DNA of 40,539 nt. It comes from an uncultured Spirochaetaceae bacterium. GTDB lineage: Bacteria; Spirochaetota; Spirochaetia; Sphaerochaetales; Sphaerochaetaceae. The translations under genes and the position numbers were made by a program. The stretch lies in the NCBI GenBank assembly GCA_945910645.1, contig CAMDZB010000011.1, positions 1 through 40,539 of the forward strand, read 5' to 3'. Numbering within the stretch: position 1 is the stretch's first letter; each line of letters opens with the position of its first letter. Below are positions 24,499-40,539 of this stretch, in pieces. Below the pieces are notes generated by a model, which did no database searches, had not been told where the DNA came from, and saw nothing but the letters and a program-made list of their open reading frames with translations.

Positions 24499-24607
24499 AT
24501 AAGGGAGGTCAGAAGGATTTTATGATTTTTTAGAAGTCAGGGGCATAACTTTCTGTAAAAAAACTCAATAATCATACACCGCAAAAGTTTGTGGTTTTTA
24601 CATTTAT

Positions 24608-24808
24608 TTACAGCCACCCTCCTAAACTGTTGTATGTAACATAATCATTCATTTTTTGGATTACCTCGTTGATATTTGTATTATTCTCGCAATAATATAT
24701 AAAACCTCTTTTTCGGGTAATCAAAATTATTCTTGCACATCTAAACTTGTCCTTTGCTGTCTAATTCGTATTTAAAGAACTTGACTTTTGTGAACTATCA
24801 AGTACTTT
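24608..24808 (-). pseudogene. Possible frameshifted remnant of a small gene
   Basis: This lies in the 415-base gap between rnz and the amidohydrolase gene. On the minus strand one frame reads KVKFFKYELDSKGQ and stops at 24741; an overlapping frame continues FRCARIILITRKRGFIYYC and ends with NSLGGWL at 24608. Joining them needs one base shift between 24741 and 24763. No ATG or ribosome-binding site fits, and I do not recognise the product. The rest of the gap shows nothing I can support apart from the rnz promoter. Confidence 0.2.
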
Positions 24809-24873
24809 TGGACTGACAAGTCAAAAGACACAGGTGCGACAAGTAATGCTTCTGAAAATAAAGGAAATACCAT

Positions 24874-25650
24874 CTATTCCCCACGCTGTAAGGAACACAT
24901 AAGCGGTACAATTGCAGCCCATTGCTTTATGTATTTCTTATACAGCAAGGAATATGCATTCTCATCTTTATCATCAAACGATTTTGTTAAACAATTCACA
25001 AGAAAATCACTCCCAAATAGAAATTTATTATATAAAGATTTAGGACATTCTCTAACAAAAGCCTTTACATCCGAAAAAGCTACATCACCATATACGTTGT
25101 CGTATCTTTTCATCAATGTGAGATTTAAAGATAAATCCTTTGTATGACACAAGACAAATTTAACATCACTATACAAACTAAACCATTTTTCAAACTTGTC
25201 TGCTCTTTCAAAGTCGCAAAGACCTGTGTGTATAAAAACAGGCCATTTTTTATCACGTGCAAATTCAAACAACTCTTCACAAAACCGTAGAGTCGCCTGA
25301 TTATTAAAGTCCCACACATTTGCTCTTGGATGAATTTTAAGTCCACAATAGTTGGCATCACGAATCATTTCGGTCACGCTAACACCGGCACTATACATAT
25401 TAGGCACACACCACAACAAAGGCTTAAACCCAAAGCCTACGCTTTTGGCATATTCACACCCCTCGTAAAATTCGTCTTTTATATGGCTTATTATTAAATT
25501 CATCTCTTCTCTATTTTCCCACGTCATACAAGACGTTGTTGAAGATACAAAAGCTCCAGAAACACCAACTTCTTTTAATATCTTAACAACTCTGTATGGC
25601 TGAAAATATAAAGTTCCATACTGTCCAATATGAACATGATAATCAACCAT
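24874..25650 (-). CDS. Metal-dependent amidohydrolase of the RiPP cluster
   Basis: The protein (258 residues from this start) has an amidohydrolase/TIM-barrel metal-site pattern: VDYHVHIG at the N-terminus (HxH), LKIHPR, WPVFIHTG and FVLCHTKD further on, and the late aspartate in FGSDFLVN. It would hydrolyse an amide, ester or carboxyl group of an unknown substrate. Its ATG overlaps the stop of the radical SAM gene by eight bases; an upstream TTG at 25677 with GGGAG before it is the alternative start. The tight coupling suggests it acts on the modified peptide or a modification intermediate, for example leader removal or side-chain hydrolysis (inference). It is not a protease of a known RiPP class. 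Confidence 0.75.
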   Translation of the reverse strand: MVDYHVHIGQYGTLYFQPYRVVKILKEVGVSGAFVSSTTSCMTWENREEMNLIISHIKDEFYEGCEYAKSVGFGFKPLLWCVPNMYSAGVSVTEMIRDANYCGLKIHPRANVWDFNNQATLRFCEELFEFARDKKWPVFIHTGLCDFERADKFEKWFSLYSDVKFVLCHTKDLSLNLTLMKRYDNVYGDVAFSDVKAFVRECPKSLYNKFLFGSDFLVNCLTKSFDDKDENAYSLLYKKYIKQWAAIVPLMCSLQRGE

Positions 25651-27079
25651 TTTTTTTGTTTTTTCTATATTTTTCAACTATCTCCCTTTGAAGTTTGGCA
25701 GCCTCACATGTTGATGGTGGCACATCGAATATACTTCCCGTTTTTGATTCGTTTGAATTTCTTGCGATACACAATTTACAGTAATTTCTATCGTCACAAG
25801 TTAAGCATTTTGGAAAGTCTTTCATACGAAGCTTTCGTAAATACAACACCTCCGGGGAATTATCCCATATATCTTTAAGTGTTTGCTTATTCAAATCTCC
25901 ACAATGATACTCCTGCCACCCTGCACAAGGATACACCATTCCATTTGCAACCATGCATAGTGTTGACATTCCAACTCCACACACTTTGTCATCTGCACTT
26001 ATATCATATTTAGTACTGGTCTCTCCCTCTTTTATGCTTTTTTGAAAAAACACATCATTCTCCAGTTGTCTTTCAATTGCTGTTTTTATATCATCAGCAT
26101 CAAGACGATTAACAAGGTTGTCCGTTGAATGGTCATATCGTGCCATTATTTCAAGATCCACAACAACCATACATTTATTGTTTTGTCCCCAATTAATCAC
26201 GTCTTGAAAAGAATCTTTATTTTGTTTCATCACAGGACAATTAATTTGAAGAGGTATGTTATTAGCAATAAGCCGTTCTATATTATCTTTTGTTTTACAA
26301 AATGAGCCTTTTACAGTTGTTATCGCATCGTGTACTTCCGGAATCATTGAATATAATGACACATTTACTATTGAATCGTTTTTGTATTTTAATGCTTGAA
26401 TTATGTCGTCTGTTAACAAAGTTAAATTAGACAAAACGGTGACTTGTAAATCCAAATCTTTAGCGTACTTTAGAAATTCAATAAAATTTGGATGAACCAT
26501 AGGCTCCCCACCGGAAAAAATGACTGTTAACACTCCCATTTCACTGCATTGTTTCAGAACGCTTTTCATTAATTCGGGCTTTATATCCGCGTTTTTGTAT
26601 TGATGAGGAATATAACAATGAACGCATCGCTCGTTGCATTTACTTGTGAGTTCAATATGAAAGGTTTCAAGATGTGGATGCGTTTTAAAATACTCTCCTA
26701 AAAAATGAGAGGACGACTCTTCTAAGTTTGAGTTTAAAGACAAAAAGTTTAGTTTCCCATTTAACGTTGAGTATTCAAAGCCCTCTTCTTTAAAATTTTC
26801 AATAGAGTCTACAGAAAACAAAAAATTGTCTTTAACCAATTCTTTATAGAAATCTTCAGCATCCTTCTTTATTTCATCACGAGTGATATTAGATTGATAA
26901 AACATCTCATAAAGTTCATCTGCTATCGCATCTATGCTTTTAGGCTCTCTTGATAGACGTTCAACAAAAGTTGCTCCCGTGTTATTTAACACCTTTTCCA
27001 CAGAAGAAGCAGGTTTGATGAGTAGGCCTATATCTCCATATCGCCTAAAATAACAATCCTTTTTCAATCCAAAATACAT
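25643..27079 (-). CDS. Radical SAM/SPASM peptide maturase with N-terminal PqqD-like domain
   Basis: The 478-residue enzyme has three parts. Residues 1-90 resemble a PqqD-like RiPP recognition element (RYGDIGLLIKP, then SIDAIADELYEMF). The radical SAM core has SKCNERCVHCY (Cys 148, 152, 155). The SPASM domain at about 365-460 has nine cysteines, including 367, 375, 385, 393, 425, 428, 434, 437 and 458, enough for two auxiliary iron-sulfur clusters. Such enzymes make thioether or carbon-carbon links in small Cys-containing peptides. It follows the Cys-rich precursor gene after a hairpin and has AAGGGG before its ATG. The class (ranthipeptide, sactipeptide or other) cannot be decided from sequence alone. 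Confidence 0.88.
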   Translation of the reverse strand: MYFGLKKDCYFRRYGDIGLLIKPASSVEKVLNNTGATFVERLSREPKSIDAIADELYEMFYQSNITRDEIKKDAEDFYKELVKDNFLFSVDSIENFKEEGFEYSTLNGKLNFLSLNSNLEESSSHFLGEYFKTHPHLETFHIELTSKCNERCVHCYIPHQYKNADIKPELMKSVLKQCSEMGVLTVIFSGGEPMVHPNFIEFLKYAKDLDLQVTVLSNLTLLTDDIIQALKYKNDSIVNVSLYSMIPEVHDAITTVKGSFCKTKDNIERLIANNIPLQINCPVMKQNKDSFQDVINWGQNNKCMVVVDLEIMARYDHSTDNLVNRLDADDIKTAIERQLENDVFFQKSIKEGETSTKYDISADDKVCGVGMSTLCMVANGMVYPCAGWQEYHCGDLNKQTLKDIWDNSPEVLYLRKLRMKDFPKCLTCDDRNYCKLCIARNSNESKTGSIFDVPPSTCEAAKLQREIVEKYRKNKKNG

Positions 27080-27120
27080 CTAGTTTCCCCTTTTGTTGAT
27101 ATAAATTATTTTATTTATAT

Positions 27121-27144
27121 TAAAAATGGGCTCTTTCGAACCCA
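27121..27144 (-). terminator. Attenuating hairpin after the precursor peptide gene
   Basis: On the minus strand TGGGTTC, a GAAA loop and GAGCCCA form a 7-bp stem with one G-T pair, followed by TTTTT. It lies seven bases after the precursor stop and 42 bases before the maturase ATG. Partial termination here would give more peptide than enzyme, a common layout in RiPP operons. Confidence 0.7.
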
Positions 27145-27151
27145 CTTATGT

Positions 27152-27265
27152 TTAACTGCATCGGCACGTTGCACAACAACCATATCCGTACTTATCAACG
27201 CAACCAGCACTGAAATTGCCGTTTGCTTTAGTCCCAGCAATCACTAAGGGTTTTGTATAAGCCAT
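27152..27265 (-). CDS. Cys-rich RiPP precursor peptide, 37 residues
   Basis: This short gene has a strong AGGAGG six bases before its ATG and encodes 37 residues. The first 21 form a likely leader (MAYTKPLVIAGTKANGNFSA, then G). The core holds five cysteines at positions 22, 30, 31, 34 and 36, with a Gly/Tyr-rich spacer and the end CCATCRCS. It lies between the P-loop gene and the PqqD/radical-SAM/SPASM gene, the usual place for a radical-SAM-modified precursor. No double-glycine protease site is obvious, and no exporter is nearby. Thioether crosslinks at the cysteines are the most likely modification (inference). Confidence 0.82.
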   Translation of the reverse strand: MAYTKPLVIAGTKANGNFSAGCVDKYGYGCCATCRCS

Positions 27266-27293
27266 ATCTTCCTCCTTTTAATTTTATATATCC

Positions 27294-27316
27294 AATTACG
27301 TCTTAAAAACGTAATT
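27294..27316. promoter_or_regulatory. 8-bp inverted repeat upstream of the precursor gene
   Basis: AATTACGT and ACGTAATT form a perfect inverted repeat around seven bases, between the P-loop stop and the precursor ribosome-binding site. No T run follows, so it is more likely an operator or mRNA-stabilising hairpin than a terminator. A weak -10-like TATAAA follows near 27280. Confidence 0.35.
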
Positions 27317-27318
27317 GT

Positions 27319-27831
27319 TTATACCACATTTATTTCTTTAAGTATTTCGTTGGAATGTTTTTTTATATCCGAATCTATTCTCTTATCACCATTACCGTAA
27401 TGAGTTGCTTTTATCGTATAATCTAAAACTTTCTCGCCAACTCTTAGTCCATCTATGAATTTTTCATACAATGCTTCATTCCTTGGATGATCTGTATTCT
27501 CTGATAACAACCAAAAATCAATTGGAGAAGGAGCACCTTTTACAAGGCACTCCATGATAAATAACAAATTATTAATAATTTCTTTTTGGTTATCACCAGG
27601 GCTTGTTATAACAATAGATATTTCTTCCCCTGCCTTATTTTTTCCTTTGAGCAAACAACGATGATCAGATGCTTTGCAATTAGGATCTTGAGTCTTAATA
27701 ACTTGTTCATCTACTTTCTCATAAACGTTAAAACCATACGTCGTCTTTAATTCATTATACACCTTATCTAAAATAGATGTTTTACCAGAATTGCTTGCAC
27801 CACTAACTTTGATAATTTTATTGAAAAGCAT
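27319..27831 (-). CDS. P-loop NTPase of the RiPP cluster
   Basis: The 170-residue protein begins with a Walker A motif, GASNSGKTS (residues 11-19), followed by a helix and a strand ending VITSPGDN, which could be the Walker B/switch region. It resembles small dNMP kinase- or MobB-type P-loop proteins but I cannot assign it. Five acidic or Cys-containing turns (DPNCKASDHRC) are notable. It is first in the operon, 53 bases upstream of the precursor. The leader next to its ATG contains nine consecutive G (27838-27846), partly acting as ribosome-binding site. A role in peptide maturation energy supply, immunity or regulation is possible (inference). Confidence 0.6.
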   Translation of the reverse strand: MLFNKIIKVSGASNSGKTSILDKVYNELKTTYGFNVYEKVDEQVIKTQDPNCKASDHRCLLKGKNKAGEEISIVITSPGDNQKEIINNLLFIMECLVKGAPSPIDFWLLSENTDHPRNEALYEKFIDGLRVGEKVLDYTIKATHYGNGDKRIDSDIKKHSNEILKEINVV

Positions 27832-27837
27832 CTCTCA

Positions 27838-27897
27838 CCCCCCCCCTATTTTAACAAGACAGTGAGATTTTACAACAAAAAAAAAAAAACGTGTCAA
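27838..27897 (-). promoter_or_regulatory. RiPP operon promoter region with T13 and G9 tracts
   Basis: Two overlapping promoters can be read on the minus strand. One has TTGACA (27892-27897) and TAAAAT (27867-27872) with a 19-base spacer containing thirteen T (27877-27889). The other has TTGTAA (27870-27875) and TAAAAT (27848-27853) with 16 bases. A run of nine G (27838-27846) follows, six bases before the ATG of the P-loop gene. Both homopolymers are positioned to change transcription or translation when their length varies. Confidence 0.5.
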
Positions 27898-27971
27898 TAA
27901 GTCAACAAGAGAACGAAAATATGAAAACCCTTAATATTCCACCAATTACACAATACGACAATTTAATCAGG

Positions 27972-28187
27972 TGTTTTCCATACATCAATAATGCTTGTTA
28001 TTTCACAAAATTGCAATATTACGAAATAATGGGCGAATTTTCTCTCCGTTATTTCGCACATGATAGAGGTGAATCGGGCTTTTAAATACGATTCACCTGA
28101 TATACTAAACCTGCATCTTTCAACCAAAGAAGAACTATGGCATATCCGAAAAGTTATGCTTTGTGCACTACTTGAGGAAGGCCGTGC
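27972..28187. repeat. 216-bp repeat, copy 1
   Basis: It is about 97% identical, without gaps, to 31245-31460 (seven differences counted by eye). It contains a perfect 10-bp inverted repeat AGGTGAATCG/CGATTCACCT (28067-28098), an 8-bp inverted repeat CGAAATAA/TTATTTCG (28022-28056) and a further GAAATAA half-site. On the minus strand it ends in ATGGAAAAC, which here runs into a stop after four codons, whereas in copy 2 it is the start of fic. The open frames crossing it on both strands are short and not convincing. Confidence 0.85.
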
Positions 28188-28219
28188 TGACTTCAGAAAA
28201 GACGCCCAAGATCCAAGGA

Positions 28220-28966
28220 TTATTTTTTTACTTGCCACCACGATACACTATTAAGGCGTATAACCAATATAAACACCAACAACAGCAACAACTCGACCGT
28301 TATGAAAGACAAAAACAAGAACAAGTCGCAAAAGAACAAAGCTATAAGATGAAGAGTGAGCAACATGCTGAACAACACAAGAAAGAAAAATACAAAAATA
28401 ATGTTGAGTTTTGACGGTGAATACGGGCCACTGTCCAGTTTGAATATATCTTCAGTTTTATTAAATTCAGATGTTAGGTCCAAATTAGGATCGTTTGCAT
28501 AGTTCTTCATTTTATCAATTACTCCGTGCTCAGGAGTATATATTCTTGATTCAACAGCGTCATAAGTTCCTTTTGCTCCTCTTGCTATTCTAAACCAAAT
28601 ATATGACACAATAATCCCCATTGTTGAAATTACACTTGCCAATGAATTAAACAGCGAATCCGACAATAACATAGGAATATTTTTAATGGAATGCAATTCT
28701 ACTATTTTAATTAGCAAGGCTCCGTACCCCGTGAGTATCAACACCAGGAATGTTGATACAAACACAGAACGCTGCCAAAATAATTGTAACTCTGTGTCGT
28801 ATCGCTTGTTTTGAAATTCCAGGTATTTGTAAAAAGCTTCACGCTCTTTTTCATTCTTTGACTTTTTTCTTGAAATATTATTTCTATTTGACTTTTTGCT
28901 TGAAATATTATTTCTATTTGATTGAATAGCAACTATTATTTGATTTACTCTTAATGGTTTTGGCAT
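28220..28966 (-). CDS. Multi-spanning membrane protein, RipA-like
   Basis: The 248-residue protein has a basic N-terminus, then LEFQNKRYDTELQLFWQRSV and about four membrane segments (around residues 68-90, 105-125, 185-205 and 215-235), ending in SWWQVKK. The FWQR motif before the first membrane segment resembles the RipA-type octameric membrane proteins, but I hold this loosely. A 30-bp tandem duplication (28863-28922) repeats SNRNNIS.KK near the N-terminus. An AAAGGA site precedes the ATG. It is the last gene of a minus-strand operon starting at the zinc-ribbon gene. Function unknown. Confidence 0.55.
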   Translation of the reverse strand: MPKPLRVNQIIVAIQSNRNNISSKKSNRNNISRKKSKNEKEREAFYKYLEFQNKRYDTELQLFWQRSVFVSTFLVLILTGYGALLIKIVELHSIKNIPMLLSDSLFNSLASVISTMGIIVSYIWFRIARGAKGTYDAVESRIYTPEHGVIDKMKNYANDPNLDLTSEFNKTEDIFKLDSGPYSPSKLNIIFVFFFLVLFSMLLTLHLIALFFCDLFLFLSFITVELLLLLVFILVIRLNSVSWWQVKK

Positions 28967-29336: not shown

Positions 29337-29696
29337 TTACTGTATATTATACTGTATATCTCCGTCTGTACAGTGAACAACAGAGAGAGGAAAATCATCC
29401 GCCCAATAAGAATCTTTACTTACATTTCTCCACTGTTCCCTCGTACCGGTATAATGTATCTCAGTAAGACCACTACATCCAAAGAAGGCCTCATACCCTA
29501 TTTCCGTTACGCTGTCAGGTATCGTAATACTTGTAAGACCACTACATCCATAGAAGGCTTCCCCCCCTATTACCGTTACGCTGTCAGGTATAGTAATACT
29601 TGTAAGACCACTACATTTATAAAAGGCATCGTATCCAATTGACGTTATTCCATCTTGTAACACCACTTCACGTAGCGTTTCATTACCATCATCGTC
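29337..29696 (-). pseudogene. BspA-type leucine-rich-repeat fragment
   Basis: The frame contains three LRR_5 repeats of about 23 residues (for example FYGCSGLTSITIPDSV) and a C-terminal end (YTGTREQW, then VHCTDGD) usual for BspA-like proteins. There is no ATG or signal peptide. The frame is closed by a TAG at 29697, just after the zinc-ribbon stop, and begins in mid-domain with NETLREVVLQDGITSIG. It is best explained as the surviving tail of a longer protein, perhaps once fused to another N-terminus. A GTG at 29664 could in principle start a 109-residue protein. Confidence 0.65.
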
Positions 29697-29699
29697 CTA

Positions 29700-29942
29700 T
29701 TACCACCAACCCTTTTTCTTAGAGTTTCTTCTTGCCTTGTTATCATTATATCCTTCAGAAAATGTCCTCCAAAGACTTGCTCCAAAGCTCTGACTTGAAC
29801 CACAATATGGACAATGTTTGGCTTCTTCTGGAATTAAATTGCCACACACTTCACACTTTTTATTATTGCCTAATATTGCCCCGCAAGACATACAATAACT
29901 CATACCATCAGGATTCTCTTTGCCACATTTTTTGCAAATCAT
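29700..29942 (-). CDS. Double zinc-ribbon protein
   Basis: The 80-residue protein has two zinc ribbons: ICKKCGKENPDGMSYCMSCG (residues about 2-21) and CEVCGNLIPEEAKHCPYCGS. A basic tail ends KKKGWW. AAAGGAGGG precedes the ATG. It opens a minus-strand operon under a promoter with a twelve-T spacer. Such small zinc-ribbon proteins in gut bacteria often precede membrane or LRR domains; a specific function cannot be given. Confidence 0.75.
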   Translation of the reverse strand: MICKKCGKENPDGMSYCMSCGAILGNNKKCEVCGNLIPEEAKHCPYCGSSQSFGASLWRTFSEGYNDNKARRNSKKKGWW

Positions 29943-29972
29943 AATTTTCCCTCCTTTTACAGAATATGTGAA

Positions 29973-30000
29973 ATTTTACCAAAAAAAAAAAACAAATCAA
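29973..30000 (-). promoter_or_regulatory. Zinc-ribbon operon promoter with a twelve-T spacer tract
   Basis: On the minus strand TTGATT (29995-30000) and TAAAAT (29973-29978) are spaced by 16 bases, of which twelve are consecutive T (29981-29992). The sequence around the -10 box (GTAAAATTTCAC) matches that of the RiPP promoter (GTAAAATCTCAC), suggesting a shared promoter type. Confidence 0.55.
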
Positions 30001-30111
30001 CATTCGGAAAAGACATAGGATTATGCCTGTATTATATTACGAAAGCACCCGACATCAAGTCGCGGATTATTATCAAAAGACACATATGCAACGTTTTTAG
30101 TATCCGATTAC

Positions 30112-31254
30112 TCAAAGATTATGTTTAAGGATAGCCAAATATTCACCAACTCCAAACACCCTATTCCTTTGTTTTTTACCATTAATCTCATTAACAATTC
30201 CCAAGTCTTTCATTTTTAAAACTATTGAAGACACACCATTATATGACAAGTTCAAGTCGCTTTGTGCCTTTCCTATACTAAAAATCGGATGTTCTTTTAT
30301 GTAATCGAGAAACAACCTCTGAACCATAGTTTTAGGTTTCAATATGTTTTCATATTTCTTGAAAATCTGATTTATTGCCTTTGACGTTTGTGCAACGTCT
30401 ACGGCTGTTTCGCTGACACCTTTTATAAAGAACTTTACCCATTGTTCATAATTACCGTTTTTTCTTACCTCCCCCAAACGATCGTAATACTCCCTTTGAT
30501 TGGCTTTTAAATACAACGACATATACAGTATCGGTTTTTTAATACACTCATATGAAAGCAACATAAGTGTGATAAGCATTCGACCTATCCTGCCATTACC
30601 GTCTAAGAATGGGTGTATTGTTTCAAATTGATAATGCACTAGTGCAACTTTTAGAAGTGCAACCATATCGGATGTGTTTATAAACTTCTCAAGTTCACTC
30701 ATGCACTCATTCATATCACTGACATTAGGAGGAACATAAACAGCTGTGTTTATATTGCTTTTAGAATTACCAATCCAATTTTGGCTTTTTCTAAACTCTC
30801 CGCGAGCCTTTTCACTTCCTCTGGTATTATCAAGAAGAATGGAATGGGTTTCACATAACAGCCTTGATGAAATAGGCAAAACATTCATTCTCTCTAACGC
30901 ATAGTTTAGTGCCTTAACATAGTTAACAACATCCTTTATATCCTCATCACTATCTGATGCAAATTCCGGAGATAACACATCTTCAAGTGTAGCTTGTGTA
31001 CCTTCTATTTGACTGCTTAAAAGTGCCTCCCTTCTTACATATGAGGCAATAAATAAATCTGTGTTTGGAATAAGTTCTGATGTTATGTTCATTTCAGAAA
31101 TATCGTTATACGCTTTTGTAAGAATAAATAACAATTCATTATCAATATTAAGTGACGGATAAGGTGGCAAAGCGTTTGGCCGATAAGAATAATACGAGGC
31201 ATCTTCCAAATAAACCTTTACATATTTTCCACTTCGTGAACTTATGTTTTCCAT
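30112..31254 (-). CDS. Fic-family AMP-transferase with winged-helix C-terminus
   Basis: The 380-residue protein has the Fic active site HPFLDGNGRIGR (about residue 213), which transfers AMP from ATP to protein hydroxyl groups. The inhibitory-helix motif SSQIEG (about residues 79-84) is N-terminal, so this is a class II, self-inhibited Fic protein. The N-terminal DUF4172-type region and a C-terminal winged helix (YIKEHPIFSIGKAQSDLNLS) are typical of the group. The ATG lies at the edge of the 216-bp repeat, which thereby supplies its upstream region; no clear ribosome-binding site is present. Targets are unknown. Confidence 0.88.
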   Translation of the reverse strand: MENISSRSGKYVKVYLEDASYYSYRPNALPPYPSLNIDNELLFILTKAYNDISEMNITSELIPNTDLFIASYVRREALLSSQIEGTQATLEDVLSPEFASDSDEDIKDVVNYVKALNYALERMNVLPISSRLLCETHSILLDNTRGSEKARGEFRKSQNWIGNSKSNINTAVYVPPNVSDMNECMSELEKFINTSDMVALLKVALVHYQFETIHPFLDGNGRIGRMLITLMLLSYECIKKPILYMSLYLKANQREYYDRLGEVRKNGNYEQWVKFFIKGVSETAVDVAQTSKAINQIFKKYENILKPKTMVQRLFLDYIKEHPIFSIGKAQSDLNLSYNGVSSIVLKMKDLGIVNEINGKKQRNRVFGVGEYLAILKHNL

Positions 31255-31460
31255 ACATCAATAATGCTTGTTATTTCATAAAATTGCAATATTACGAAAT
31301 AATGAGCGAATTTTCTCTCCGTTATTTCGCACATGATAGAGGTGAATCGGGCTTTTTAATACGATTCACCTGATATACTAAACCTGCATCTTTCAACCAA
31401 AGAAGAACTATGTCATGTCCGAAAAGTTGTACTTTGTGCACTACTTGAGGAAGGCCGTGC
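31245..31460. repeat. 216-bp repeat, copy 2, upstream of fic
   Basis: It is the partner of 27972-28187 in the same orientation, with the same inverted repeats (AGGTGAATCG/CGATTCACCT conserved). Its minus-strand end holds the fic start codon. The remaining bases to 31585 hold the leader of the next plus-strand gene (TAAGGAGGG before its ATG) and no other feature I can support. Confidence 0.85.
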
Positions 31461-31585
31461 GATCCTCGGAAAGATTTATTAAAAGTCTACAGAATTTCTC
31501 GGAAATGACAATTATTGAACATTTTGATATATTTATATCTACAAACTGATAATATGTTGTTTTTTACGCATCATAAGGAGGGAAA

Positions 31586-33300: not shown

Positions 33301-33816
33301 TTAAAGAGTTGTGCGACAGAATATTCCGGTATTCTTTTCCCATTGGTAAGCCCATCGTTCGTCCCCATTCTCCAGTTTGATTATTCCACAATATTTAAAG
33401 CCCAACTTTAGCACCGTTTTTTGCATCGGTATATTATCCTTATGCGTGTCTATCCTAACATTTGGATATTGCTTAAGGCACCACTCTATGCATTTTGTCC
33501 CAACCCCTTTTTGATAAACGGCAACTGCGATTCTATGTATAAACCCGTAAGGTTTATCGTTCAGCCATTCCCCGTTGTAAATCTTATTATACGTTGGTTC
33601 CTCCCCTATAAAAAAACAAAACACACCAAGGAGTACATCATTCTCAGTGCAAACGTAGCAATGTCCTGCCCTTATATCTTTTAAGACTTTATCTAATATT
33701 TGATCTATGTTTGACCATTGAGTTAAATTACCCTCACTAACCATAAATTCACGTGCACGTAAGTAAATTATTTTAATATCTTCATACTCTTCAACTTTTG
33801 CCTTCCGTATTTCCAT
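33301..33816 (-). CDS. GNAT-family N-acetyltransferase
   Basis: I choose the ATG at 33816, where the protein begins MEIRKAKVEEYEDI, the usual first strand of the GNAT fold; a longer frame from a GTG at 33888 adds 24 residues that do not fit the fold. The core shows GFIHRIAVAVYQKGVGTKCIEW, a variant acetyl-CoA site (Q-K-G-V-G-T), and IDTHKDNIPMQKTVLKLGF. The substrate is unknown. It stands alone between a lipoprotein and the recombinase gene. Confidence 0.8.
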   Translation of the reverse strand: MEIRKAKVEEYEDIKIIYLRAREFMVSEGNLTQWSNIDQILDKVLKDIRAGHCYVCTENDVLLGVFCFFIGEEPTYNKIYNGEWLNDKPYGFIHRIAVAVYQKGVGTKCIEWCLKQYPNVRIDTHKDNIPMQKTVLKLGFKYCGIIKLENGDERWAYQWEKNTGIFCRTTL

Positions 33817-33917
33817 AAGCGTATTGTAACAGAAAGGAATAAGATTTTTACAGAAAAAGGAAGGAATCCCAGAAAATATAGGTTTCACATTTATAATTCC
33901 CTAAACAAGGAGTATAA

Positions 33918-34835
33918 ATGATGAAATACAGAGAATGGTTAAAGATATGGCTTGAAAACTACATAAAACCGTGTGTGCGAGAACGGACATATATGCGATA
34001 TGAACAAATAATTCGAATACACATAGAACCCAAAATTGGCGATCTACAAATTAAAAAAATAACATCGCTGGTTTTACAAACCTTAATCACTGAATTGTTA
34101 AATAATGGGAACACAAAAACTAAGGCGGGATTATCAAGTAACACAGTAAACAATATCATTTCCGTTATACAAGGCTCCATTAAAATGGCACATATGCTTG
34201 GCTACATAAAAGAAAATACGTCTTACGCCATCAAGCGCCCCCGTATTGATGAACACAAAATAGAGTGTTTTTCGCTTATAGAACAAAAGAAAATTGAAAA
34301 TGCAGTATTAAAAAGTGCAAAAACAAAACTCTTCGGCATAATTATATGTTTGTACACCGGACTTCGCATTGGGGAATTAATGGCACTAAGATGGAAAGAT
34401 ATAAACCTAACAAATGGTGTACTTATCGTTTCACATTCTTCCCACGATTCGAAAGGAGGTATTGTTTTTGATGAACCCAAAACTGAAAGTTCAAAACGTA
34501 TAATTCCATTACCAAAACAACTATTACCAAGGTTAAAACATATACAGAAAAACACCCATTCGGAATTTGTTATATCAAATGGAACGTCCCCTATTTCAGT
34601 ACGTTCTTATCAGCGAACTTTTGAACTGCTCTTAAAAAAATTAAGCATTAAACACAGAGGATTTCACTCTCTTCGTCATACATTCGCAACACGAGCTTTA
34701 GAGTGTGGAATGGACGTAAAAACCCTATCTGAAATTCTTGGGCACAAAAACCCAACTATTACGTTAAACCGATATGCTCACTCTTTATTAGAACACAAAG
34801 TTACAATGATGAATCGTCTAGGAGAGCTCTTATGA
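33918..34835 (+). CDS. Phage-type tyrosine recombinase (integrase)
   Basis: The 305-residue protein has an N-terminal SAM-like DNA-binding domain (WLENYIKPCVRERTYMRYEQ) and the complete catalytic set: TGLRIGELMALRW (first Arg), the KTESSKR lysine, HSLRHTFATRALE (HxxR), LGHKNP and the nucleophile in LNRYAH. AAGGAG precedes the ATG. It resembles integrases of Tn916-type and prophage elements, though no excisionase or structural genes are near. It may have carried the restriction-modification and toxin genes that follow. The gap to 35037 holds an inverted repeat (ATGTTCA/TGAACAT, 34834-34864) and the next promoter. Confidence 0.92.
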   Translation: MMKYREWLKIWLENYIKPCVRERTYMRYEQIIRIHIEPKIGDLQIKKITSLVLQTLITELLNNGNTKTKAGLSSNTVNNIISVIQGSIKMAHMLGYIKENTSYAIKRPRIDEHKIECFSLIEQKKIENAVLKSAKTKLFGIIICLYTGLRIGELMALRWKDINLTNGVLIVSHSSHDSKGGIVFDEPKTESSKRIIPLPKQLLPRLKHIQKNTHSEFVISNGTSPISVRSYQRTFELLLKKLSIKHRGFHSLRHTFATRALECGMDVKTLSEILGHKNPTITLNRYAHSLLEHKVTMMNRLGELL

Positions 34836-34923
34836 ATGTTCATAAAATATGCCATTCGCTGAACATTTAGATTTATATAAGCAAACTTGATGCTTTTCAA
34901 CAATAGTCAACAAATAAAAAACA

Positions 34924-34952
34924 TTAACTTTTTCTCCGTTATAGTCTATAAT
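34924..34952 (+). promoter_or_regulatory. Promoter of the type III restriction-modification operon
   Basis: TTAACT (34924-34929) and a perfect TATAAT (34947-34952) are spaced by 17 bases, about 85 bases before the mod ATG at 35038. GGAGG lies ten bases before that ATG. Confidence 0.5.
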
Positions 34953-35037
34953 ACGTACATAAACTGGCATATTCGATGAACAAAACTGTTTCTCATAGGG
35001 TTCATGGAATACCAAAAATCCATGGAGGAACATCCCG

Positions 35038-36723
35038 ATGTCAACAAACGTTTCAAAAGAAAAGCGTGATGCACTCATTTCAAAAATAAATGCTATTAAA
35101 GAGTACATCTTGTCTCATTCACAAGATGAAAATGCTTTAAATCTTCTTTCTTACACAAACGAGATTGAAAATGAACTCCGTGCTAAAAGATTTGGTCTTG
35201 TATTTGAGGAACATCTTGAAAAAATTGATGAAGTACTTTCAAATCATTTGCCATATCTCAAAGAGGAAGAAAAACTGTTTATAGATAACGGTGGTGAAAT
35301 GAATTTTCTCATTGAAGGAGACAACCTGGCTTCCTTAAATTTGCTGTTGAAAACCCACAAGGGCAAGATTGATTTAATTTACATAGATCCGCCTTACAAC
35401 ACGGGCAACAAGGATTTTATATACGATGATAATTTTGTTGACAGCACAGATACATTCCGCCACAGCAAGTGGCTTTCGTTTATGGAGAAACGCCTTAGAC
35501 TTGCTAGAAAACTGCTCTCTGAAAACGGTGTGATTTTCATAAGCATTGATGAACACGAATTTGCTGAATTGAAGTTGTTATGTGATAGTGTGTTTGGGGA
35601 AGATAAATTTGTAGCGTGTGTTTGTGTAAAAGGTAATCCAAGAGGTCGCCAATCAAGTACATATTTTGCACAAGTTCATGATTCTTTACTCGTTTATAGA
35701 CGGACAGAAAAAACAATGCTTATGGGCTTTCCAATAAGTGATGATGAAAAGAAAAAACGATTTAATAAATTAGACGAAAACAATGTTCCATATGAAGAGT
35801 GGGAATTGAGAAAAAGAGGAGCAGACTCGAAAAGACAAGATTCCCCTAATTTGTGGTTTCCTATTTATTATAATATAAAGTATGGTATTTCTACTAATAA
35901 AAAGTCTGATGATGATATTGTTATTTTGCCAAAATTAAGCGATGGCTCGGATGGTCGTTGGCGTTGGAGTAAGGAAAAAGTAGAAAAAGATAAATGTAGA
36001 TTGTATGTTAGAAAGAACAATAAGGATATATACAACATATATGAACGCAAATATATTGAAGAAAAATCAAAGCAATTAGCACCTACAATTTGGGACTATC
36101 CCGAGGTTAATACAGAATTAGGGACTAAAATTTTAAAGGAATTGTTACAAGGAGAAGCGGAGTTTAATTTTCCCAAACCCATAGGGTTGATTATTCGTAT
36201 TTTACTTATGTACCCATCTTCCTCTTCCACCGTTCTCGACTTCTTTGCAGGCAGTGGCACCACAGGACACGCTGTGTTGAAACTGAATGCAGAAGACGGA
36301 GGAAAACGCAAGTTTATACTTTGTACAAACAATGAAAACAACATTGCCAGGAACGTGTGCTATGAACGTATTAAGCGTGTTATCAACAAAGAAGAATATA
36401 AAGCAAGCCTTAAATATTTCAAAGTAGACTATTTGTCTATCAGCGATAAACTATACTACGAATATGCCGATGAATTGTTAAAGCATGTTCGTGAACTTGT
36501 AGAGCTGGAAAACGGCATAAACTTTAATGACAATAGCGAAATTGCAATTATTCTTACTGAAGATGAACTTGACGAGTTTACAAAAACTATCCCGTCCTCA
36601 TGTAAAAAAATATACCTTGGACACGATATCTTACTTTCTCTTGACCAAGAACAAGAACTGAAAAAGCGAAACATTCAGATAAATATAATCCCCGATTACT
36701 ACTACAACGAGGAGAGCATCTAA
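35038..36723 (+). CDS. Type III restriction-modification methyltransferase (Mod)
   Basis: The 561-residue protein methylates DNA at adenine N6. The catalytic motif DPPYNTG (residues 117-123) comes before the S-adenosylmethionine motif DFFAGSGTTGHAV (about 400), the order of beta-class methyltransferases and of type III Mod proteins. The central region (about 200-340) is the variable target-recognition domain. The N-terminal 90 residues are helical. I see no simple sequence repeat in the gene that would make it phase-variable. It overlaps the res gene by one base (TAATG). Confidence 0.9.
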   Translation: MSTNVSKEKRDALISKINAIKEYILSHSQDENALNLLSYTNEIENELRAKRFGLVFEEHLEKIDEVLSNHLPYLKEEEKLFIDNGGEMNFLIEGDNLASLNLLLKTHKGKIDLIYIDPPYNTGNKDFIYDDNFVDSTDTFRHSKWLSFMEKRLRLARKLLSENGVIFISIDEHEFAELKLLCDSVFGEDKFVACVCVKGNPRGRQSSTYFAQVHDSLLVYRRTEKTMLMGFPISDDEKKKRFNKLDENNVPYEEWELRKRGADSKRQDSPNLWFPIYYNIKYGISTNKKSDDDIVILPKLSDGSDGRWRWSKEKVEKDKCRLYVRKNNKDIYNIYERKYIEEKSKQLAPTIWDYPEVNTELGTKILKELLQGEAEFNFPKPIGLIIRILLMYPSSSSTVLDFFAGSGTTGHAVLKLNAEDGGKRKFILCTNNENNIARNVCYERIKRVINKEEYKASLKYFKVDYLSISDKLYYEYADELLKHVRELVELENGINFNDNSEIAIILTEDELDEFTKTIPSSCKKIYLGHDILLSLDQEQELKKRNIQINIIPDYYYNEESI

Positions 36724-38924
36724 TGGAACTAATGGATTTTCAAAAAAATGCAATTAAAGAATTACTCAGTGCAATGAACGATGATAAAATTCGTGAAATC
36801 ATTCTAAAAAGCCCAACTGGAAGTGGCAAAACCATAATGCTCTCTCACTTTATGAGTAAATACACAAGAGAAAAGTCAAAAACCGTTTTCGTGTGGCTTA
36901 CTCCAGGAAAAGGAAATCTCGAAGAACAGAGCAAAACAAAAATGGATAAATACATTCACAATGCTTCCACTAAACTACTCTCCGATGTAATGACAAATGG
37001 TTTTGAAGAAAACGATTTTTGTTTTATCAACTGGGAAAAACTCACAAAAAAGGGCAACAATGCTCTTAAAGAAAGTGAAAGAACTAATTTTCTTGAATGG
37101 GTAGAAAAGGCATTAAACAATGGGCTTTCATTTAAAATAATAGTGGATGAAAGCCACCAAAACTTTACAGAAAAAGCCGATAGTATTATACAACTTTTTC
37201 ACACAGATAAAATCATTCGCTCGTCGGCCACTCCCAAAAAAGATAATAAAGCAAAACTTATTGAAATTAAAGAAGAAGATGTTATCGGCGAGGGACTTAT
37301 AAAAAAATTACTCGTTATAAACGAAAATTTTCCTCAAGTGATAAAAACAGACAATCAAACTTATTATCTTCTTGAACAAGCCGTAAAAAAACAAATAGAA
37401 ATTCAATCTGTTTTTGTATCAAAAGACACTTCTATTAATCCCCTTATTATTGTACAAATACCAAACAATAGCACCGCACTTTTAGAAACAGTAAAAAAGT
37501 ATTTTAAAGATCTTAATATTACAACTGAAAACGGAAAACTTGCAATTTGGCTTTCTGATGAGCACAAAAACATAGAAAGCATTTCTGATAACAATGCTGA
37601 GCAAAAAGTTTTAATTATGAAACAAGCCATAGCAACAGGATGGGATTGCCCAAGGGCCTACATCTTAGTGAAACTTCGTGAAAATATGGATGAAACTTTT
37701 GAAATTCAAACAATAGGTAGAATCCGTCGTATGCCAGAGGCAAAGCATTATGAAAATCATCTACTTGATTGCTGCTATCTTTACACATTTGACGAAAAAT
37801 TCGTATCCGGTGTTAAGATGGCATTAGGTAAAGGAGCACTAGAATCAAAAGAGCTTTTTCTTAAAAACGAATATAAAAATATCACATTAATATCAGAGCA
37901 AAGAGGAATATTAACAGACATAACCACAGATCAAAGAAGAACCAGAAGTTCCATAAACAAGCATTTCAGAAATACTTTCAATCTAACCAATGACAAGAAA
38001 AAAAATAAGGAACAACTAGCATCCCACGAATTCAAATTTTCAGATACTATAGATACTTACACTAAATCTGGAAATATTTCTAACATTTCAGAATCAAAAA
38101 GTGTCAATAATCTTAATATTATAACCGTCAAAGAAGTTCCTAACACACATAAACACGGTCAAGATTTACGTCATGCAATTGGATTAATCGCTCTTGAAAT
38201 TAACAAAGACTACAACACAACGAGAAGTATAATAGACTGCCTGTTCTTTGAGAAAATTCAATATCAGGACAAATTACTATCTTTAAATGCAAAAGAACTT
38301 TATTCTTTTGTATTAAACAATGTTGATTTGTTAAGACACAATTTTCGCAACGCTATGGCCACACAACTTCAAGAGAGAAATATCGATTCTCTTTCTCTCA
38401 AATCTCAAAAAGAATTCAAGATTCCTCACACTCTTAATTTTACATACAACGCAAACAGTAAAGACCAAAGTGAAAGTGAAAAAAATGTTTATAAAGGATA
38501 CCTGTTTTCAGCAGAACCACGTTCAGCCTCAGAAAAAAAATTCGAAAACTTTTGTGAAGAATCAAATGCAGTTGAATGGCTATATAAAAACGGAGATAAG
38601 GGGGGTGAATACTTTTCTATAGTGTACGAAGATAACAGCGGCAAACAAAAACTGTTCTATCCCGACTACATATTATCTGTAAAAGGTGAAACATGGATTG
38701 TGGAAACAAAAGGCGGATTTGACAAAGAAGGAAACAGCGAAGACATCGATATATTTTCAGAAAAAAAATTTGAGGCATTAAAAAACTATCTTCATACTTA
38801 TAAATTGAAGGGCGGTTTCGTCCGATACGACACAAAAAGCGAAAAACTTTGCATTTGCCTTAATAACTATACCAACGACATTAATTCTGATGATTGGCAA
38901 CTTCTTAAAAACGTTTTCCACTAA
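36723..38924 (+). CDS. Type III restriction enzyme, helicase/nuclease subunit (Res)
   Basis: The 733-residue protein has the helicase Walker A motif SPTGSGKT (30-37), IVDESHQNF (DExH box, about 141), SSATP (motif III) and IQTIGRIRRM (motif VI). The C-terminal nuclease motif is YPDYILSV followed by WIVETKGGFD (PD-(D/E)xK, about 645-665). With Mod it forms the restriction complex that cuts DNA bearing two unmethylated sites. Both subunits look intact. It is shorter than classical Res proteins (about 900-1000 residues). Its stop overlaps the convergent antitoxin gene by a few bases. Confidence 0.9.
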   Translation: MELMDFQKNAIKELLSAMNDDKIREIILKSPTGSGKTIMLSHFMSKYTREKSKTVFVWLTPGKGNLEEQSKTKMDKYIHNASTKLLSDVMTNGFEENDFCFINWEKLTKKGNNALKESERTNFLEWVEKALNNGLSFKIIVDESHQNFTEKADSIIQLFHTDKIIRSSATPKKDNKAKLIEIKEEDVIGEGLIKKLLVINENFPQVIKTDNQTYYLLEQAVKKQIEIQSVFVSKDTSINPLIIVQIPNNSTALLETVKKYFKDLNITTENGKLAIWLSDEHKNIESISDNNAEQKVLIMKQAIATGWDCPRAYILVKLRENMDETFEIQTIGRIRRMPEAKHYENHLLDCCYLYTFDEKFVSGVKMALGKGALESKELFLKNEYKNITLISEQRGILTDITTDQRRTRSSINKHFRNTFNLTNDKKKNKEQLASHEFKFSDTIDTYTKSGNISNISESKSVNNLNIITVKEVPNTHKHGQDLRHAIGLIALEINKDYNTTRSIIDCLFFEKIQYQDKLLSLNAKELYSFVLNNVDLLRHNFRNAMATQLQERNIDSLSLKSQKEFKIPHTLNFTYNANSKDQSESEKNVYKGYLFSAEPRSASEKKFENFCEESNAVEWLYKNGDKGGEYFSIVYEDNSGKQKLFYPDYILSVKGETWIVETKGGFDKEGNSEDIDIFSEKKFEALKNYLHTYKLKGGFVRYDTKSEKLCICLNNYTNDINSDDWQLLKNVFH

Positions 38925-39610
38925 CTCTCGCTGTTCACCCCACTCCAATTGTTCATTACATCCTTCATCGGGCTTTCTAGCAAATCCTCAACGCCACATC
39001 CAAGCACACGGGACAACTTATAAAGAGTGTGAGCCTCTGCTTTATCAATGTCGTTCACACGTTGTTCGTAAAGTTGTATTGAACGAATATTCACTCCCGA
39101 AAGATATGCAAGTTCACTCTGCGATAACTTCTTGTATTTACGGAATTTACGTAATTTTGTTTCCAACACGACGGCGTTATAACGCCTATCCATCTCATCA
39201 ATAAAACAAGTTATATCCATTTCGTGATATAGCGGATACATGGCGATAATCTCACTAAGTGGAATACGCCTGAAAATTTCCTTGAAACGTTTTGCGGTTT
39301 TCCATTGATATTGTGCCAATGCCCACCCCGCCCAATATTCAGGAGTACGACCTTTTGAAAATGTGGGATGGGGAAACTCAACGCCGGGATAAACCTCGCT
39401 TAAAATGTCCATCACGAGTTCAACACCAGACCGACCAGAAACTATCGCTGGATTTCCACGCTCAAATTGAACGGATTTATTTGACATAACAAACAGTTTC
39501 ATAAACCAATCAGAAGAGAATTTGCAGACATTTATTGCATAATCAAAAGCGTTTGCCAAACTTCTCTTCGCATCACTCAAATACAATTCGCTGTATGCGT
39601 GGATCGTCAT
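38921..39610 (-). CDS. Antitoxin-type protein with C-terminal XRE helix-turn-helix
   Basis: The 229-residue protein ends in an XRE-type helix-turn-helix (LRKFRKYKKLSQSELAYLSG, then IRSIQLYEQ, residues about 155-215). The N-terminal 150 residues are a conserved domain of unknown fold often found beside DUF3990 toxins (for example NPAIVSGRSGVELVMDILSE). It starts 38 bases inside the toxin gene, GAGG lying before the ATG, so it is translated after it. It likely neutralises the toxin and represses the operon through the palindrome at 40306. Confidence 0.75.
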   Translation of the reverse strand: MTIHAYSELYLSDAKRSLANAFDYAINVCKFSSDWFMKLFVMSNKSVQFERGNPAIVSGRSGVELVMDILSEVYPGVEFPHPTFSKGRTPEYWAGWALAQYQWKTAKRFKEIFRRIPLSEIIAMYPLYHEMDITCFIDEMDRRYNAVVLETKLRKFRKYKKLSQSELAYLSGVNIRSIQLYEQRVNDIDKAEAHTLYKLSRVLGCGVEDLLESPMKDVMNNWSGVNSES

Positions 39611-40271
39611 TTTTTATTTCCTCTCTTAAAATATCCATCACGAAGATATCATCCTTATATGAATGCTTTTGCTTTAATTCTTTTTGATATGTTGATCTTG
39701 CATTCCTATCTCTGTCGTTAAATTTTGTGTAGTATTCTTCTTTATCAACAGATTCTGAATTTATGAATTCAATTTGACTGAAAGCCTTTTCTGATATAAG
39801 AACAGTTTGCATTCCAAGTTTGCCAAGGTATAGAGCTTGATTTAAACTCCTTAACGGCAAAGTATTACTTACAAAAGATTCAGCATATGAAAAAAATGAA
39901 TCATCTGCACGGTATCCTATAACAACATCGTATCCACTCAAGTCCAATGCAAAGTTTTCAACAACATAATTTCTTGCATCTATAGCTATTTCATCTTGTA
40001 GTGTAAATAAACGGTTTTTAAGCAACAATCCTATCCAATTCAATACAGTGTAATTTCCGTCAAAAAGATTAATTACCTTCAATCCTTTGGTATTAAAGGA
40101 ATATTCATTAACAAAACCATCAGCATTATTTTTACAAGCCCATTCCCTTGCCATTTCAGGGATTTGTGTACAATAAAATCCTTGTCCATAATCATTGTGC
40201 TTCCTCCCTAAACCGAGTTGTGGTGTTTTAATAATATGATCGGATCCATGCAAAAGTTTAACAGTTGACAC
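39573..40271 (-). CDS. DUF3990-family toxin (ADP-ribosyltransferase fold)
   Basis: I choose the GTG at 40271, which has GAGGAG eight bases upstream; a longer frame from TTG at 40298 lacks one. The 232-residue product begins STVKLLHGSDHIIKTPQLGL and continues DYGQGFYCTQIPEMAREWAC, the DUF3990 signature. This family belongs to the ADP-ribosyltransferase superfamily and occurs as the toxin of toxin-antitoxin pairs. The late FDGNYTVLNWIGLLL segment is typical. It overlaps the downstream HTH gene by 38 bases. Its cellular target is unknown. Confidence 0.8.
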   Translation of the reverse strand: MSTVKLLHGSDHIIKTPQLGLGRKHNDYGQGFYCTQIPEMAREWACKNNADGFVNEYSFNTKGLKVINLFDGNYTVLNWIGLLLKNRLFTLQDEIAIDARNYVVENFALDLSGYDVVIGYRADDSFFSYAESFVSNTLPLRSLNQALYLGKLGMQTVLISEKAFSQIEFINSESVDKEEYYTKFNDRDRNARSTYQKELKQKHSYKDDIFVMDILREEIKNDDPRIQRIVFE

Positions 40272-40302
40272 AATAAGAGTCTCCTCTTCATTTATCAAAA
40301 TA

Positions 40303-40332
40303 ATTATATCATTACAATGATATAAATGTAAA
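40303..40332 (-). promoter_or_regulatory. Toxin-antitoxin promoter with 18-bp palindromic operator
   Basis: On the minus strand TTTACA (40327-40332) and TATAAT (40303-40308) are spaced by 18 bases. The 18-bp palindrome ATATCATTACAATGATAT (40306-40323, plus strand) fills the spacer and touches the -10 box, an ideal site for autorepression by the HTH partner. Confidence 0.65.
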
Positions 40333-40351
40333 TAGTCACAAAGATCACGCT

Positions 40352-40378
40352 AAATAAAAAAAAACACCTTTCGGTGTT
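40352..40378 (-). terminator. Terminator of tRNA-like unit 1
   Basis: On the minus strand AACACC, loop GAAA and GGTGTT form a 6-bp stem (40363-40378) followed by nine T. The same hairpin recurs at 40476-40491 with loop GCAA. Confidence 0.85.
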
Positions 40379-40386
40379 CTTCTTTT

Positions 40387-40464
40387 GGAGGTAAGGGGAC
40401 TCGAACTGGTGAACTCTCACTTCGTTTCTCTCTCGTGGTGGGTCACGGGTTCTTCGCCCCCTCC
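40387..40464 (-). ncRNA. tRNA-like RNA, unit 1 of a tandem array
   Basis: Read on the minus strand, the 78-nt unit begins GGAGGGGGCG and ends TTCGAGTCCCCTTACCTCC plus A, like a tRNA T-loop and acceptor 3' strand. The 5' and 3' ends can pair (GGAGG with CCTCC), but the T-stem does not form and no normal anticodon arm is clear. Two small hairpins (CGTG/CACG and GTGA/TCAC) lie inside. It is followed by a terminator. It is either a degenerate tRNA or a tRNA-derived small RNA. Confidence 0.45.
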
Positions 40465-40539
40465 AAATAAAAAAAAACACCTTGCGGTGTTCTTCTTTTG
40501 GAGGTAAGGGGACTCGAACTGGTGAACTCTCACTTCGTT

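Follow-up and report, generated by a model that had tools for sequence, protein, structure and literature searches.

Homopolymer switches in described systems

Most known cases of phase variation concern pathogens, in their surface antigens, capsules and restriction systems, and in Mycoplasma hyorhinis a poly-A tract in the promoter region of the vlp genes acts as a switch. For T. pallidum tp0126, a published account (PMC7864442) places a poly-G tract between the -35 and -10 elements, with activity best at a spacing of 17 nt, and reports tprL tract lengths that vary in vivo; the same account describes a poly-G tract between -35 and -10 in Neisseria porA, where tract length switches the spacing. 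In M. tuberculosis, a +1 variant of a poly-G tract in the 5' UTR of espR raises translation (PMC11898584).

The sequence analysed here (the window, the whole stretch of 40,539 nucleotides, contig C11) belongs to a genome of 1,152,629 bases in 33 contigs and harbors a putative RiPP operon preceded by a T13 and a G9 tract. The locus resembles tp0126 and tprL in its spirochaetal host and in the presence of a promoter homopolymer (about 8-10 nt; PMC7864442), but the tract is poly-G and the product an outer-membrane protein in those cases, whereas here a poly-T tract lies in the spacer of a putative promoter before a peptide operon. The spacing-type layout is also that of Neisseria porA, with a different base, organism and type of gene. 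With the vlp system it shares an A/T homopolymer in the promoter, vlp encoding lipoproteins in a wall-less bacterium. The layout, the placement of the long T tracts before -10-like boxes and the length differences at sibling tracts make T13 a good candidate for a promoter switched by slipped-strand mispairing, in the manner of T. pallidum tp0126 or Neisseria porA.

The preliminary description of this locus had considered that switching of a peptide natural product in this manner would be unusual, an assessment that stands, since no open-access precedent was found. Searches of the open-access literature returned nothing on homopolymer phase variation of RiPPs or natural-product clusters, which is no proof of absence, and nothing on phase variation in Sphaerochaeta; the bacteriocin accounts found in the open-access bacteriocin and lantibiotic literature do not, in their available parts, concern homopolymer switching.

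FlaA (PF04620) was detected in 44/60 genomes of the class and in 0/14 controls, which shows the class to be spirochaetal. Its absence from the sampled genomes of the host family (0/4) points to a lineage that is Sphaerochaetaceae-like and non-motile, and that probably lives in the gut.

A putative RiPP operon preceded by two homopolymer tracts

The leader and the operon comprise the following elements.

27897-27892, minus strand: -35 hexamer TTGACA of promoter P1, matching the consensus at 6/6 positions
27891-27873, minus strand: P1 spacer of 19 nt, made up of CG, T13 and GTTG
27889-27877, minus strand: T13 tract within the P1 spacer, where a change in length shifts the -35/-10 spacing
27872-27867, minus strand: -10 hexamer TAAAAT of P1
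27875-27848, minus strand: rival promoter P2 from a consensus scan, TTGTAA, 16 nt and an extended -10 (TGTTAAAAT, TG before TAAAAT)
27846-27838, minus strand: G9 tract, the upstream portion of a Shine-Dalgarno sequence (GGGGGTGA)
27831-27319, minus strand: first gene, 170-aa P-loop protein (GASNSGKT)
27266-27321, minus strand: 11-bp hairpin between the first gene and the precursor gene (z -5.85)
27265-27152, minus strand: candidate RiPP precursor, Cys-rich and 37 aa long, preceded by a Shine-Dalgarno sequence of its own (AAAGGAGG)
27079-25643, minus strand: radical SAM (rSAM)/SPASM peptide maturase with an N-terminal PqqD-like domain
25677-24874, minus strand: amidohydrolase-family protein, its gene overlapping the maturase gene

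On the minus strand, the G9 tract is followed by TGAGAG and then by the ATG at 27831, leaving a gap of six bases. Both placements given in the preliminary description, G9 six bases ahead of the first start codon and T13 between the TTGACA and TAAAAT boxes, are exact to the base. T13 thus lies between the -35 and -10 elements of P1, as in spacer-type homopolymer promoters. The optimum for a promoter spacer is 17 nt, and that of P1 measures 19 nt. The consensus scan returned 11 promoter-like sites in the region for 15.3 expected, and hence no excess; the choice of P1 as the promoter rests on its perfect -35 and on a layout that the other long T tracts share. A plus-strand ORF (27921-28085), upstream of which the run reads as A13, was dropped as a candidate because most of it falls within a repeat whose flanks are different in the second copy and in a genus-mate (G001).

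The operon sets rSAM, SPASM and leader-binding domains next to a short Cys-rich putative precursor, the composition of an rSAM/SPASM RiPP cluster, and reached no NCBIfam equivalog cut-off. It resembles sactipeptide/ranthipeptide-type clusters (SkfB, AlbA), in which rSAM, SPASM and PqqD-like domains also occur beside a Cys-rich short ORF, and differs from them in a P-loop first gene without known family. An AlphaFold2 model of the P-loop protein, built from two sequences (pLDDT 72.6), had no PDB match at E <= 0.001; given that the matches obtained were weak and inconsistent, no function was assigned. The P-loop protein was found in 1/61 relatives and 1/139 family genomes, that one being its own genome, and had no match in genome_contigs, viral_contigs or plasmids, even with a two-row alignment search. 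For the rSAM protein, whose whole-genome search covered its own genome only, genome_contigs returned nothing usable. Rfam families had no match in window positions 24500-28300.

The hairpin at 27266-27321 lacks a T run after it and is therefore no plain terminator; together with the precursor's own Shine-Dalgarno sequence, it suggests separate handling of the precursor mRNA. The precursor gene may also have its own internal promoter, in which case switching would touch the first gene alone. Contig C4 carries diverged counterparts of the operon's first three genes (39% for the P-loop protein, 34-37% for the rSAM protein, with a short peptide ORF between them). No homopolymer tract is present in this paralogous operon, and a tract is hence not required for such an operon.

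Long T tracts and their association with -10 boxes

Pattern searches of the whole genome located G9 at two sites, runs of at least seven G at seven places and runs of at least 12 T at four sites, two of which (2/4) lie in the window. Extrapolation from the runs counted in 397,843 sampled bases of the genome predicts about 0.1 G/C runs of at least 9 nt and 1.4 A/T runs of at least 12 nt; plain base composition predicts 1.5 and 0.6, respectively, so that rarity alone is modest evidence. What goes beyond chance is the position of the tracts (the association of T tracts with -10 boxes) and the changes in length at orthologous tracts. Among 263 crudely predicted genes of the genome sample, the longest G run at -20 to -4 was 5. 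Elsewhere in the class, one relative of 5.7 Mb (G044) stands far above all other genomes, with 1041 matches to G9 when overlapping ones are counted.

The long T runs of this genome and of G001 define the following promoter-like sites.

Contig C11, RiPP promoter P1: TTGACA, T13, TAAAAT, spacer 19
Window, minus strand, -35 and T tract at 29981-30000, zinc-ribbon gene at 29942: TTGATT, T12, TAAAAT, spacer 16
Contig C2, before a TOMM-type operon: TTTACA, T13, CATAAT, spacer 18
Contig C4, before a lipoprotein-like gene: TTGTTT, T26, TAAAAT, spacer 28
G001, before the orthologue of the C4 lipoprotein-like gene: T19, spacer 21
G001, before a BspA-type LRR gene with a lipoprotein-like N-terminus: T15, spacer 14, homologous to the zinc-ribbon promoter of the window
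G001, before another lipoprotein-like gene: TTGAAA, T15, TAAACT, spacer 18

The seven spacers vary between 14 and 28 nt in length, far more widely than those of ordinary promoters; those of the C4 T26 run and of the three G001 runs, like the lipoprotein calls, were read by eye from the sequence. In the genome of the window, a -10-like box lies within 5 nt downstream of 4/4 runs of at least 12 T, and of none in a reversed-sequence control, with a box set picked after the hits had been viewed. Across both genomes, leaving out duplicates and runs less than 40 bases from the start or 60 from the end of a stretch, a -10 matching at least 5/6 positions follows 6/7 runs of at least 12 T against 637/10,527 runs of T5-T8 (p 3e-7). 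Such a -10 combined with a -35 matching at least 4/6 positions was observed for 5/7 and 276/10,527 runs, respectively; the T26 run falls short in its -35 (3/6), and one of the T15 runs of G001 in its -10 (4/6).

The most telling of these T-tract promoters is that of contig C2. Its operon (L028:2508-11685) encodes a 34-aa Cys-rich ORF, SagB, a SagC-like protein, YcaO, a CPBP-type protease and an ABC exporter, and its leader combines the T13 of the promoter with a G6 in the 5' UTR. The SagB dehydrogenase, SagC/E1-like and YcaO cyclodehydratase genes adjoin a Cys/Ser/Thr-rich candidate precursor (the 34-aa ORF, ending in CCCCTCSCSC), as in TOMM clusters. Profile matches exceeded the cut-off for TIGR03605, TIGR03882 and PF02624, and fell below it for TIGR03603 and TIGR03604 despite E values of 7e-29 and 8e-50. 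Because the C2 operon is of TOMM type, two unrelated RiPP operons of one genome carry a T13 promoter, and switching of a peptide natural product may, within this genome, be the rule rather than the exception. In G001, the YcaO gene is present (80%) on a contig that ends inside it, and the TOMM promoter region is absent from the 1,074,874 bases examined. A promoter-like site with a porA-like layout was also seen in a family-mate (G020, L076), where TTGACT and TATACT are separated by 19 nt containing G10.

Tract lengths in a sister species

Tract lengths were compared with one genus-mate, G001, which is a different species (many gene alignments at 72-86%). Alignments had to span at least 200 bases at 85% identity or more, and of overlapping ones only the best was retained, which left only about 21 kb. 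Within it, length differs at 6/8 orthologous long tracts and at 9/448 short ones (p 1e-8). Among A/T runs, 7/419 of 4-8 nt and 3/5 of at least 9 nt differ; the corresponding figures for G/C runs are 2/29 (4-6 nt) and 3/3 (at least 7 nt), one of these three, located after fur, being interrupted (G6 versus G10AGG). The orthologous lipoprotein promoter has T26 in the genome of the window and T19 in G001, with the -10 and flanks retained. Two further cases fall outside the 6/8 count: the G001 homologue (T15) of the zinc-ribbon/LRR promoter is 2 nt shorter, the aligner having nonetheless scored its T run as equal, and the ribosome-binding site (RBS) of a PNPOx-like remnant has G8 here and T followed by G6 in G001. 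The zinc-ribbon/LRR promoter lies downstream of a Fic segment that is 98.7% identical in G001.

The length differences at sibling tracts fit the statement that such tracts are prone to slipped-strand change. The searches returned no variant of the RiPP leader: none of the 61 relatives or 139 family genomes yielded a second allele, nor did genome_contigs, viral_contigs or plasmids, and an exact 25-base leader query had no match in viral_contigs. A metagenome-assembled genome (MAG) gives one consensus length per tract, and assembled homopolymer lengths can be wrong.

Two other loci present tracts that differ between the species. A gene for an MBOAT O-acyltransferase (Pfam; L002:1372-2837) carries near its 5' end a tract (C15:2981-2989) of G9, shortened to G8 in G001. 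Neither length is in frame, for which G7 or G10 would be needed. Tract length thus sets the frame of an otherwise intact gene, as in coding-tract phase variation. In both species the rest of the reading frame is open, with 97% identity between them, as would be expected of a gene retained for expression in another phase; codon changes amount to 9 synonymous and 12 non-synonymous, and a dN/dS near 0.4 by rough reckoning indicates mild constraint only. On this sequence evidence, the MBOAT gene is a second candidate phase-variable gene. At a fur-family gene (L008:1085-1507, contig C1), the RBS tract is G7 here and G5 in G001, and the G tract after the stop codon is the interrupted one mentioned above.

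The G9 tract and ribosome binding

The preliminary description had proposed that both tract positions would alter expression, and this is supported for T13 by its place in the -35/-10 spacer, by the -10-like boxes after all four long T runs and by the T26/T19 difference at a sibling promoter. For G9, computed anti-Shine-Dalgarno duplex energies, assuming the usual anti-Shine-Dalgarno sequence, are -15.2 at G5, -16.4 at G8, -17.9 at G9 and -17.7 at G10-G14, so that RBS strength is near flat from G5 to G14. As the tract extends on the upstream side of GGTGA, a change in its length also leaves the distance to the ATG fixed. The G tract was rejected as an on/off RBS switch on both grounds, and should be regarded as an overlong Shine-Dalgarno sequence that at most fine-tunes translation, unless transcription starts within it, as it would from P2. 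The espR tract, by contrast, lies away from the RBS and is thought to act through RBS-hiding hairpins (PMC11898584), whereas G9 is part of the RBS. A hairpin hiding the RBS does appear in computed folds of the leader; it requires a transcript start upstream of 27863, which is not favoured by the -10 of P1.

G tracts occupy the same RBS position before fur and the PNPOx-like remnant in this genome. In another species of the genus (G002), G13-TGAGGA-ATG precedes a 106-aa ORF (L087:1495-1840), resembling G9-TGAGAG-ATG in the window, and in G020 a G9 tract ends one base ahead of an ATG.

Readings of the RiPP leader

We favour, with moderate confidence, the hypothesis that P1 drives the RiPP operon through a slippage-variable T13 spacer, yielding a mixture of producers and non-producers, with G9 restricted to fine-tuning. 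From the layout, the rarity of the tracts, their positional association and the differences in length of sibling tracts between two species, we infer use of the promoter, slippage at the RiPP locus, an effect on expression and transcription as an operon. The minus-strand promoter at 27897-27867 would drive the P-loop protein, the Cys-rich precursor, the rSAM/SPASM maturase and the amidohydrolase. T13 would gain or lose T by slipped-strand mispairing, moving the -35/-10 spacing by single bases around its optimum; the assembled T13 (19 nt) would be weak, and T11-T12 (17-18 nt) strong. P1 would belong to a small set of poly-T-spacer promoters of the genus, also driving the TOMM operon and surface lipoproteins, and G9 would be one of the overlong Shine-Dalgarno tracts that vary in related genes and affect translation only slightly.

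Alternatively, P2 could be the real promoter, with T13 just upstream of its -35 like a UP element, and with G9 length and initiation slippage as the variable. In the consensus scan, P2 combines a spacer of normal length with a TG ahead of its -10, and its start would fall inside the G tract; in T. pallidum, the tprE/G/J and tprL promoters respond to poly-G length (PMC7864442). The -35 of P1 is however perfect, and other long T tracts have their -10 directly after the tract, fitting P1 rather than P2, which makes P2 distinctly unlikely as the operative promoter. The tracts could also be neutral, arising by mutation in AT-rich non-coding island DNA with no selected role, and G9 an overgrown purine-rich Shine-Dalgarno sequence. 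The GC content of the island (about 33%, versus 42% in the genome sample), the variation of the long tract after fur, where function is unlikely, and the tract-free paralogous operon on C4 are all in keeping with neutrality. Long T runs nevertheless sit before -10 boxes, as T5-T8 runs do at only 6%, and 2/4 runs of at least 12 T precede RiPP operons; moreover, even neutral variation of the spacer would alter promoter strength. We consider neutrality unlikely.

Very improbable, in turn, is an origin of the MAG length differences in assembly or sequencing error, with the high-identity segments representing cross-binned contigs. Segments of 90-98.7% do occur among gene alignments of 72-86%; yet these alignments show length differences at only 9/448 of the shorter homopolymers, and on contig C11 the combination of two non-island alignments at 78 and 86% with island segments at 96-99% fits gene exchange.

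Beyond the T13 switch at P1 that we favour, it is possible, and proposed here only tentatively, that RiPP production is a contingency trait of this lineage of FlaA-less gut spirochaetes, with the unrelated rSAM and TOMM operons and surface lipoproteins placed under one class of poly-T-spacer promoters. Producing and non-producing cells would then arise at random within a clone, so that the cost or risk of antagonistic peptides is spread. If RiPP clusters of gut commensals switch in this way, peptides may escape both bulk genomics and screens of single isolates when the cultured clone is off, and bet-hedging of chemical warfare would be testable by counting tract lengths in reads, for which the RiPP, TOMM, lipoprotein, zinc-ribbon/LRR, MBOAT and fur tracts provide a ready list of sites.

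Island context

From about 24 kb onward, the GC content of the window drops from 40-48% to 33-37%, outlining the island that holds the RiPP operon. A 228-nt direct repeat, present upstream of the RiPP promoter (27972-28199) and at 31245-31472 with 95% identity, bounds a 3.3-kb stretch from the RiPP promoter to the Fic gene, and related copies occur in G001. Several segments are 96-99% identical to G001 (window 33317-35398, 36219-40539 and 29953-31460; L005 6247-9004; L008) among neighbouring gene alignments of 72-86%, reflecting either recent exchange of island DNA between the species or cross-binning. The Fic protein (30112-31254) matches PADLOC SoFic (E 1e-109), and genes for a phage-type integrase, a DNA methyltransferase and a ResIII-type restriction/helicase protein at 33918-38924 indicate an integration and restriction island. 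Tandem 69-nt LRR repeats, one of them with an in-frame G7, were observed at 29464-29670.
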